Positions 5,109 through 15,116 of a DNA stretch of 32,336 bases are shown one piece after another. The number at the start of each line of letters is the position of its first letter. Position 1 is the stretch's first letter. A program made the position numbers and the translations under genes. This stretch comes from Candidatus Omnitrophota bacterium (GTDB lineage: Bacteria; Omnitrophota; Omnitrophia; Omnitrophales; Aquincolibacteriaceae): the NCBI GenBank assembly GCA_028713205.1, contig JAQTOZ010000010.1:1-32336 (forward strand), given 5' to 3'. The notes under the pieces were generated by a model. That model saw only the letters and a program-made list of their open reading frames with translations. It was not told the origin of the DNA and ran no database searches.

Positions 5109-6191
5109 TTATTTGGCCTTAAGATAGGTGAAGAAAAATTGTTTGCCTCTGCCGATTTCGAGATAAAGCCGTTCCCCCTCTTTGACTTTCGCGCCTTCTT
5201 CGATAAGATCCTCTACAAAACGGATTTTCGTCTTTTGGAATTGCGTAAGCGTATCCCCCGCCCTCAACCCCACGGCTCCGACATCCGAGTCGGGGTCCAC
5301 CTCCACCACAACTACTTTTTCCTGCCCGTCCGGGCCCTTGGCTTCCACCGGGAAAAAACCAAACCGTTTCATGAACGCTTCAAGCTTGGCATTTTTTTCG
5401 CGCCACGCCTTTAACTCCGGGATCCGGTTTTTTGCGCGATTGACCGGAATGGCAAACCCTATTCCCTGCGCCCGCCATATTTGCAAGTTGATCAAACCGA
5501 TCATTTCACCTTTCATATTGAGCAACGGCCCGCCGCTGTTACCCGGATTCACGGACGCGTCCGTCTGAATCAAGTCATCAAAAATCGCCTGTTTGCCTTC
5601 CGGATACTTGCGATGGAGTCCGCTCACAATGCCGCGGGTTACGGTCCAGGCATATTCATACGGCGTGCCGATGGCAAAAACATCCTCGCCGACCTGAAGC
5701 GCATCCGAATCGCCCAGGGCAATCGGCTGCAGAGGCTCCGTTGCCTCAATTTGGATCAGGGCCAAATCCTCTTTCCGGTTTTTGCCGATCAACTGGGCGG
5801 GATAAGTTTTGCCGCCATGCAATACGACTTGTATCGACGGGGCTCCGGCAATAACATGTTCATTCGTCAAAATAAGTCCGGAGGAATCCAAAATAACACC
5901 GGTTCCCGTTCCATGAAATTTGATTTCATAGGTGTTTTCCCGCTGCTCGAAAAAGTCCTGGAAAAACCGGACGATAAACCAGTTTCCGCCCTCATCGTGC
6001 CATTGCCAGCGATGATTCGTTTTTATGTTCACGACGCTCGGCTGAATTTTTGCAATAATCTCGGGCACGTTGACCGCTCCACGTCGCGCGGGAGGATGGA
6101 CCAGAACTTTTTGGGAATAGACCGGGTAGGCTGTCGACAAAACGAGAATCAGTCCCGTCAAGAAAAACAGAATGGATGTTGTTTTTTTCAT
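5109..6191 (-). CDS. Exported trypsin-like serine protease with PDZ domain (HtrA/DegP family)
   Basis: A 360-residue secreted protease. Residues 1-26 form a Sec signal peptide (two Lys, then a hydrophobic core, ending AYPVYSQ). The catalytic triad is His112 (TNEHV), Asp142 (KEDLALI) and Ser219 (NPGNSGGPL). Residues about 285-350 resemble one PDZ domain (GLRAGDTLTQFQ). The length with one PDZ is closer to DegS than to DegP, but the signal peptide looks cleavable. The likely role is envelope protein quality control. No Shine-Dalgarno precedes the ATG; the upstream bases TAAACC are the same as before the next gene. It is followed directly by the DUF2339 gene. Confidence 0.92.
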   Translation of the reverse strand: MKKTTSILFFLTGLILVLSTAYPVYSQKVLVHPPARRGAVNVPEIIAKIQPSVVNIKTNHRWQWHDEGGNWFIVRFFQDFFEQRENTYEIKFHGTGTGVILDSSGLILTNEHVIAGAPSIQVVLHGGKTYPAQLIGKNRKEDLALIQIEATEPLQPIALGDSDALQVGEDVFAIGTPYEYAWTVTRGIVSGLHRKYPEGKQAIFDDLIQTDASVNPGNSGGPLLNMKGEMIGLINLQIWRAQGIGFAIPVNRAKNRIPELKAWREKNAKLEAFMKRFGFFPVEAKGPDGQEKVVVVEVDPDSDVGAVGLRAGDTLTQFQKTKIRFVEDLIEEGAKVKEGERLYLEIGRGKQFFFTYLKAK

Positions 6192-13190: not shown

Positions 13191-14513
13191 CTAAACCTTG
13201 ACCTGCCACATGGGGATATTGAGCCTTTGTCGGAAAGTCTCACCGCGCAAGAGTTCGGCCTTCCTTGCCGGCAAATCTCCCCGCTCGGACAAATGCTGCC
13301 GGTGTTTACCCAGCCAAAGGCTCACGCCCAAATGCAGGCTATGTTTGCCGTAAATTTCATTCACGCCATCGATCACTTTATCCACGGCGCGGAAGGACCG
13401 GATCTGCGGGACATCATCAAAAAGCGAGTACTGCATCGCGACATCCGGCTCCAATTTGGACAATACGACACCGGTCAGCCGGTAAAATTTTGCGGGACAA
13501 AATACTTTTTCGAATAGCGCGCTGACAAGAGGGACCGCCTCCATGATCGAGGACGAACTGCGATCAAGCTCAGCCTCCAATCCGCAGGACCGGAACTCTT
13601 GGTCGCGGAGAAAGATTGCGATCCGTTTCACGCGAAGCCTGTGTCGCCTTAATTTAATGAAGGCGGATTCCACATTGCGCACAAGCTGCGCTTTCACAAA
13701 ATCTTTATCGGAGGACGGCGGCGTGAACGTTTTGGTCTTGCTGATCGTCGCATAATCATCTTTCTCCTGAGTCAGCACCGGATAAACCGGTTCTCCGCGG
13801 AGTTCATGCCACAATTCGACGCCGATCTTGCCGAGCCATTGTTTGGCCCATCCTTCCGGGCGGCCGACATAATCCCACACGGTCCGGATTCCCTTTTTCT
13901 GAAGCAAGGCCACGGTGTTCGGGCCAAATCCGCATACCCGTTCAAGCGGAATGCCAGGCAAATAATGCTGCAGCTCATTCGCTCTCACAACGGTAAAGCC
14001 ATCCGGCTTTTTCTCTTTCGAAGCTATCTTGGCCAGCGTCTTGGAAGCACTCAGCCCGACGGAAACCGTCAACCCCAGCTCTTTTTGAAGGCTTTGCTTG
14101 ATCTGCCATGCGATTTGCACGTAATCAGTACGGTAAATCCGCCTCAGTCCCGAAAGTTCGGCAAAGGCCTCATCGATGGAGTATTCCTCCACGATGGGCG
14201 TAAACCTGCGGATGATCCCGAATAGGCGCCGGGAATAAAGGCTGTAAGTTTCATAATCACTCGGAAGACAAATCAGGCCGGGACAAATTTTCCGTGCTTC
14301 AAAAATCCTCATCGGCCGTTGCACGCCGATGGCTTTGGCTTCATAGCTGGCACACGCGACAATCCCGCGTTCTTTGCCCGTCACAACGGGGTGCCCGCGA
14401 AGCTCCGGCTTTAAGGCCTGCTCCACTGAAGTGAAAAAGGCATCGCAATCGATGTGAACGATGGGACTGGCAAACGAACGGATACTGATGGGCCTAACGG
14501 TACTTCCTGACAT
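13191..14513 (-). CDS. Y-family translesion DNA polymerase (UmuC/DinB-like)
   Basis: A Y-family error-prone DNA polymerase of about 440 residues. The catalytic carboxylates are in HIDCDAFFTSVEQ near the N-terminus and in YSIDEAFAEL further on. Helix-hairpin-helix-like sequence (IPLERVCGFGPNTVALLQKKG) and a little-finger domain follow. A QYSLF motif about 80 residues from the C-terminus fits the beta-clamp-binding consensus. The C-terminal part after it resembles UmuC tails. The start is uncertain: ATG 14513 overlaps the end of lexA by 20 bases; in-frame TTG at 14519 has GGGGAG six bases upstream; TTG at 14537 is also possible. The overlap with lexA indicates a two-gene SOS mutagenesis operon comparable with umuDC. 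Confidence 0.92.
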   Translation of the reverse strand: MSGSTVRPISIRSFASPIVHIDCDAFFTSVEQALKPELRGHPVVTGKERGIVACASYEAKAIGVQRPMRIFEARKICPGLICLPSDYETYSLYSRRLFGIIRRFTPIVEEYSIDEAFAELSGLRRIYRTDYVQIAWQIKQSLQKELGLTVSVGLSASKTLAKIASKEKKPDGFTVVRANELQHYLPGIPLERVCGFGPNTVALLQKKGIRTVWDYVGRPEGWAKQWLGKIGVELWHELRGEPVYPVLTQEKDDYATISKTKTFTPPSSDKDFVKAQLVRNVESAFIKLRRHRLRVKRIAIFLRDQEFRSCGLEAELDRSSSSIMEAVPLVSALFEKVFCPAKFYRLTGVVLSKLEPDVAMQYSLFDDVPQIRSFRAVDKVIDGVNEIYGKHSLHLGVSLWLGKHRQHLSERGDLPARKAELLRGETFRQRLNIPMWQVKV

Positions 14514-15081
14514 TGGCAACCACAACTCCCCCGACAACCAATTCCGCCTGCGGATGAATCGGCGAATATTTTTTGTTGGCCGCCCTCAAAATAACTTTGC
14601 CGCCTTGTTTTTCAAAATATTTCATGGTCCAAGCTCCGTCCACCTGCGCGATCACGATGTCCCCGGATTTGGGTTCCCGGCCCCGCTCGACGATCACAAG
14701 ATCCCCCGCCATAATACCGGCCTCGATCATGGAATCGCCCGTCACTTTGACCAAATAGCTGGATTGTGGTTTTTGAATCAGGAACTCATCCAGGGAAAGC
14801 GTATCGATGAGTTCTTCCTCGGCCGGAGAAGGGAATCCTGCCTGCACAACCCCCAGGAGCTTGATCCCGCCCGACAGCGCCGGTGTCGGCAACAGTTTGC
14901 CGGCCGAATCCTTTTTGACAATTCCTTTTTTGATCAGATGACGGACCAGGACCGAGACCCCGCCTTTGGAGCTGTAACCGGCCAATGCTTGAATTTCTGA
15001 AAAGCTGGGCAGGCGTTTGCGCTTGGCATAAAAACCACGCAGTTTCGAGAGGATGGGGCCGAGATCGAGAGTACGAGCCAT
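14494..15081 (-). CDS. lexA: LexA-family SOS repressor with autocleavage domain
   Basis: A 195-residue LexA. Residues about 24-60 form a winged helix-turn-helix (LPSFSEIQALAGYSSKGGVS). The cleavage site is Ala81-Gly82 (VVQAGFPSP). The Ser-Lys dyad is Ser117 (TGDSMIEAG) and Lys154 (WTMKYF). The spacing matches E. coli LexA almost exactly (84-85, 119, 156), so this is a full repressor and not a UmuD. It would repress damage-inducible genes, including its own operon with the polymerase, until RecA filament triggers self-cleavage. The gene has no Shine-Dalgarno, and the predicted transcription start is the A of its ATG. Confidence 0.93.
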   Translation of the reverse strand: MARTLDLGPILSKLRGFYAKRKRLPSFSEIQALAGYSSKGGVSVLVRHLIKKGIVKKDSAGKLLPTPALSGGIKLLGVVQAGFPSPAEEELIDTLSLDEFLIQKPQSSYLVKVTGDSMIEAGIMAGDLVIVERGREPKSGDIVIAQVDGAWTMKYFEKQGGKVILRAANKKYSPIHPQAELVVGGVVVANVRKYR

Positions 15082-15087
15082 ATCGAA

Positions 15088-15116
15088 ATAATAAACGGAC
15101 GATCGTCCGTTGTCAA
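15088..15116 (-). promoter_or_regulatory. lexA promoter with palindromic operator (putative SOS box), leaderless
   Basis: Read on the minus strand: a perfect -35 TTGACA (15111-15116), a 17-base spacer, and a -10 TATTAT (15088-15093). The perfect 18-bp palindrome AACGGACGATCGTCCGTT (15094-15111) fills the spacer and touches the -35. A repressor bound there would block RNA polymerase. Since the gene downstream is lexA, autoregulation is the obvious reading. Six bases separate the -10 from the ATG, so the expected +1 is position 15081, the A of the start codon. Confidence 0.85.

Follow-up and report, generated by a model that had tools for sequence, protein, structure and literature searches.

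The 18-bp perfect palindrome AACGGACGATCGTCCGTT, located in the promoter of a LexA-like gene in a 32,336-nt stretch of Candidatus Omnitrophota DNA (contig JAQTOZ010000010.1; hereafter the window), is very probably the operator of a self-repressing, damage-inducible Pol V cassette made up of the repressor gene P0001 and the polymerase gene P0002 (Table 1). According to the proposed mechanism, a P0001 dimer would bind the GGAC-N4-GTCC core in the spacer between the -35 and -10 boxes and, once bound, would deny RNA polymerase access to the promoter of the operon that encodes it. Upon DNA damage, RecA-ssDNA filaments would trigger self-cleavage of P0001 between Ala81 and Gly82, in which case the DNA-binding part would be severed and the operon derepressed. 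The 114-residue UmuD'-like remainder would then probably pair with the UmuC-type polymerase made from the same operon and take part in translesion synthesis, which is the least certain step. Both the RecA-triggered self-cleavage of S24 repressors and the minimal regulons of UmuDAb and HdiR are established (PMC8565304, PMC11332147).

Table 1. Features of the cassette and its promoter, with positions in the window
Feature	Position	Strand	Basis and remarks
P0001, 195 aa, winged helix and UmuD-type S24 peptidase	14494..15081	-	Domain, model and conservation evidence; expected to act as autorepressor and as accessory subunit of Pol V
Operator (predicted), 18-bp perfect palindrome AACGGACGATCGTCCGTT, core GGAC-N4-GTCC	15094..15111	-	Sequence; kept in 20/20 close orthologues
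-35 box, TTGACA	15111..15116	-	Sequence; TTG conserved in orthologues
-10 box, TATTAT	15088..15093	-	Most orthologues have TATAAT; ATG follows after 6 nt
P0002, predicted UmuC-type Y-family polymerase	13191..14537	-	Clamp motif QYSLF, RecA-NT-like segment, conserved C-tail; overlaps P0001

On the minus strand, the promoter reads TTGACA, a 17-bp spacer, TATTAT and 6 nt leading to the ATG at 15081. A sequence-only reading of the window had placed the palindrome exactly between the two boxes; its sequence and its position at 15094-15111 are as claimed and it does fill the spacer, but 'exactly' is off by 1 bp because the palindrome and the -35 box share one position, the final base of the latter. 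Perfect palindromes of at least 18 bp occurred in 17% of 300 simulated windows (first-order Markov, same length and dinucleotide make-up), and symmetry alone is therefore weak evidence, even if no palindrome in the window other than AACGGACGATCGTCCGTT exceeds 14 bp. The placement of the palindrome in the spacer and its conservation among orthologues, on the other hand, are far beyond chance. The comparison took in 58 genomes, that of the window and those of relatives. In 18 of them a close orthologue is encoded, with 20 gene copies in total at 63% protein identity or more, and every one of these genomes and copies has a box of the AACGGACGATCGTCCGTT type between the -35 and -10 boxes, some 15 nt ahead of the ATG. 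The conservation upstream of orthologues proposed as a check in the sequence-only reading thus turned out strongly positive. Aligned across these 20 promoters, the box has an information content of 1.4 bits per column, compared to 1.6 for the -10 box and 0.11 upstream of the -35 box. A promoter profile recovered the cassette promoter in all 18 genomes, a result that is partly built in as the profile was trained on 18 of these same promoters; an unsupervised listing of upstream regions agreed with it in finding the box in the orthologues. Independently of the training, the profile gave no match better than E = 0.01 outside the cassettes in the 58 genomes, the best one (E = 0.014) being within an ORF.

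The spacing of the box to both promoter boxes is nearly fixed across orthologues. This bears on the idea that the palindrome acts as an RNA or DNA structure, i.e. a terminator hairpin or cruciform, instead of a protein operator. A perfect palindrome can indeed fold, and the paired changes seen among relatives preserve its symmetry. However, its place between the -35 and -10 boxes is ahead of the predicted transcription start, no T run stands behind it in the direction in which the upstream gene is transcribed (the sequence there is TATTATTTCG), and its variation goes with that of residues in the protein (see below), all of which together with the fixed spacing makes a structural role extremely improbable. 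In most Omnitrophota copies 6 nt separate the end of the -10 box from the repressor ATG, and because of this short distance the repressor mRNA is predicted to be leaderless or nearly leaderless. Elsewhere in the window, a 14-bp palindrome with the same half-sites and a spacer two bases shorter (ACGGACGCGTCCGT, positions 5551-5564) is located within a trypsin-like protease gene and is probably due to chance.

P0001 combines features of LexA and UmuD. It passes the NCBIfam lexA model TIGR00498 (116.6 bits; cut-off 110.95) and also the UmuD model NF007621 (113.5 bits; cut-off 110). As in LexA, an N-terminal winged helix is joined to an S24 domain with an Ala-Gly site and a Ser/Lys dyad: A81-G82 (the predicted cleavage site) as well as S117 and K154 (the predicted dyad) are invariant in 33 relatives. 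As in a UmuD/Pol V system, the S24 domain is of the UmuD type and the gene sits beside a umuC-type gene; the domain shares 45-55% identity with UmuD proteins versus 31-33% with LexA proteins, and the UmuD-like cleavage context AGFPSPAEEE is conserved. In a protein tree the P0001 family (96%) groups with UmuD, a branch with 98% SH-aLRT support dividing it from LexA; the tree was made by a quick method, and the grouping is good and not final because the reference branches are long. The whole-length fold matches of the P0001 model are LexA proteins, LexA-DNA complexes included, and UmuD in complex with a RecA filament also ranks with the nearest folds (TM 0.88 of the target). The gene had been called lexA but is not a plain one, since its peptidase lies closer to UmuD and the gene opens a Pol V-like operon. 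The closest named relatives are Omnitrophota proteins (66-76% identity). No homologue was found in a scan of viral contigs, and the phage and plasmid matches are distant UmuD or LexA proteins. One contig labelled 'uncultured proteobacterium' (L010) carries an Omnitrophota-like copy (76%), and that genome is probably mislabelled.

For P0002, the best generic scores were obtained with DinB models, none above cut-off. Its clamp motif, RecA-NT-like segment and C-terminal tail, however, align with UmuC, in which these features have been described (PMC6511836), and are absent from DinB. The true start is uncertain, either TTG at 14537 or ATG at 14513. Linkage of repressor and polymerase holds in homologues of Omnitrophota, Patescibacteria and Nitrospirota, whereas the homologues of Kiritimatiellota, Lentisphaerota and Verrucomicrobiota (L030, L031, L033, L034, L043, L044, L048) are mostly without an adjacent polymerase. 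Five of these seven retain a full GAAC-type box, and the regulon of the homologues in these phyla may be different. The repressor gene has a scattered distribution in the family, as an accessory cassette would, and three genomes (G006, G011, G014) have two copies each.

An ordinary LexA master repressor would control several unlinked repair genes, usually including recA, and the palindrome would then be one of many SOS boxes (at recA, uvr genes and polymerases). P0001 does score above the lexA cut-off and no second S24 protein was found in the genome, which would fit such a role; that it passes the UmuD model too fits it less well, and at the level of strong sites no control of this kind was seen. 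Searching the window's genome for the 18-mer with up to three mismatches returned 17 places versus 36 for a reversed control, with no other near-perfect site, and the off-target sites examined were in ORFs, save L104 (intergenic, no repair gene) and L102 (overlapping ORF uncertain). Likewise, CGGAC-N4-GTCCG occurred at 6 places versus 13 in the control, the other five being inside ORFs, and a search with the promoter pattern (its -35 one base off) returned cassette promoters only. The recA gene of the window's own genome is at a contig end, with its promoter cut off, and the recA scan thus covers eight relatives; no box was present upstream of recA in any of them (best score 6.9, versus 12.7-28.9 for true boxes), nor was there one around the second Y-family polymerase gene of the genome. 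The presence of copies ahead of repair genes, a test set in the sequence-only reading, came out negative: none is among the convincing sites of this genome scan. A genome-wide SOS regulon was rejected for strong sites, only the P0001 operon carrying the site in the genome, and the master-repressor explanation is improbable. That is, the proposal of a LexA operator stood in so far as the palindrome is almost certainly the operator of a LexA-like protein, while the broad SOS regulon gave way to a single operon. Because the box is conserved at orthologues with no convincing copies at other repair genes, we regard it as the SOS-type operator of a single-operon switch. A RecA match was absent in four of 12 cassette-bearing draft genomes (G006, G007, G010, G031), three of which are at least 90% complete; this is awkward for a RecA-triggered switch, although drafts can miss genes.

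The box had also been said not to resemble known ones. However, the window's CGGAC-N4-GTCCG differs from the Gram-positive box CGAAC-N4-GTTCG, itself among the boxes listed in the sequence-only reading, by one symmetric substitution, and GAAC versions exist in close relatives. Most Omnitrophota copies have GGAC-N4-GTCC and four close relatives GAAC-N4-GTTC, which is also the form in most homologues of Patescibacteria, Nitrospirota and the Kiritimatiellota/Lentisphaerota group, where it often reads GTGAAC-N4-GTTCAC or CGAAC-N4-GTTCG; the relatives L039, L041, L046 and L063 carry CGAAC/GTTCG half-sites where the window has CGGAC/GTCCG. Because relatives carry these forms, the window box, judged by its bases, is one symmetric substitution away from the known GAAC-N4-GTTC type and not a new kind. 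Compared to the Gram-positive (DinR/Cheo-type) LexA box, the geometry and the 4-bp spacer are shared and 8 of 10 defined bases are equal; the differences are that the second half-site base is here G (or T), tied to a Gly-Gly helix, and that P0001 is UmuD-like. The S24 SOS repressors of Bacteroidetes (boxes GGA-N5-TCC and CTAA-N5-TTAG) likewise stand outside canonical LexA and have a superficially similar GGA...TCC half-site, but they differ from the P0001 system by one base in the spacer, a phage-repressor-like N-terminal domain and a broad regulon (PMC8565304). Among the papers searched, none described a GGAC LexA box or named both Omnitrophota and LexA. Patescibacteria encode P0001 homologues with GAAC boxes, and it is possible that this GAAC branch has already been described in published work on the Patescibacteria DNA-damage network.

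The suggestion that the site is lineage-specific was borne out in detail, with the GGAC variant and a matching recognition helix in Omnitrophota. The winged helix had been called divergent, which is fair because the Pfam LexA DNA-binding model gave no match to P0001, and its recognition helix differs in line with the box. In the structure model (mean pLDDT 80, pTM 0.48, relative placement of the domains unsure) the N-terminal domain has helices at residues 7-21, 27-34 and 39-51 and a two-strand wing. The recognition helix is that at 39-51, which includes G40-G41, and in an alignment with Escherichia coli LexA, residues 38-41 (Ser-Lys-Gly-Gly) fall opposite Ser-Pro-Asn-Ala, where the recognition helix starts. 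A GGAC or GTAC box accompanies all 16 Gly-Gly proteins, while GAAC accompanies 25 of the 26 others, the exception being Pontiella sulfatireligans (L032), with an Asn-Ala helix and a GTAC box; in this named strain, too, a polymerase gene sits beside the homologue. Fisher's test on this association gives p = 1e-10, a value that kinship inflates; when the tree is built from the peptidase domain, with the helix left out, there are three independent helix/box switches, all in the same direction (sign test p = 0.25). Two paralogous cassettes in G014 differ accordingly, one combining Gly-Gly with GGAC...GTAC and the other Asn-Ala with GTGAAC-N4-GTTCAC. From these sequence correlations we infer that the beginning of the recognition helix may serve to read the second half-site base, with Gly40-Gly41 going with G or T, and Asn-Ala and others with A. 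These natural variants, with one half-site base and a pair of helix residues changing in step, could be useful for understanding how LexA-type winged helices read DNA.

The same correlation speaks to the question of whether an unrelated repressor, e.g. a TetR-like protein, controls the operon through the palindrome. Many repressors use palindromes in promoter spacers. Nevertheless, the site co-occurs with the P0001-type repressor gene and not with other genes, and it follows the recognition-helix changes, down to the two paralogous cassettes of a single genome, which makes control by an unrelated protein very unlikely.

Among known systems, Acinetobacter UmuDAb resembles P0001 in having a UmuD-type S24 domain with a DNA-binding domain, a minimal regulon and self-cleavage (PMC8565304, PMC11332147), the latter features being predicted here. 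UmuDAb represses error-prone polymerase operons including its own (PMC8565304, PMC11332147), and self-repression is likewise predicted for P0001, in which the extra N-terminal domain is present in the model and the operator is conserved. The operators differ: UmuDAb-type sites have TTGA/TCAA arms and a GTnAC core (PMC11332147), an arrangement not found in the P0001 box, whose GGAC-N4-GTCC is without the GTnAC core. In addition, the N-terminal domain of P0001 aligns directly with LexA, and one operon is served in cis, not several. HdiR of Streptococcaceae is also an S24 repressor of itself and of a UmuC homologue, but it clusters with phage repressors (PMC8565304), whereas P0001 joins a LexA-type winged helix to a UmuD-type peptidase. 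The results provide a predicted damage-response operator for Omnitrophota and suggest that a DNA-binding UmuD controls its own polymerase outside Acinetobacter.

A bolder reading, which we put forward tentatively and hold somewhat less probable than its opposite, is that one protein serves as both SOS repressor and Pol V subunit, a single RecA-triggered cut freeing the promoter and making the active accessory subunit of the polymerase. As a cassette, such a one-component switch would have reached several candidate phyla, with operator and helix diverging together, so that the two copies in G014 could stay insulated from each other.

Omnitrophota also encode more LexA-like proteins, with other candidate operators, namely CCGAACATATGTTCGG (L076) and ACCTAACATATGTTAGGT (L078). 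Moreover, a TATAATGCTGTAT-like stretch just before the start is common to L073 and L075, with a similar one in L077, and is a further candidate operator.
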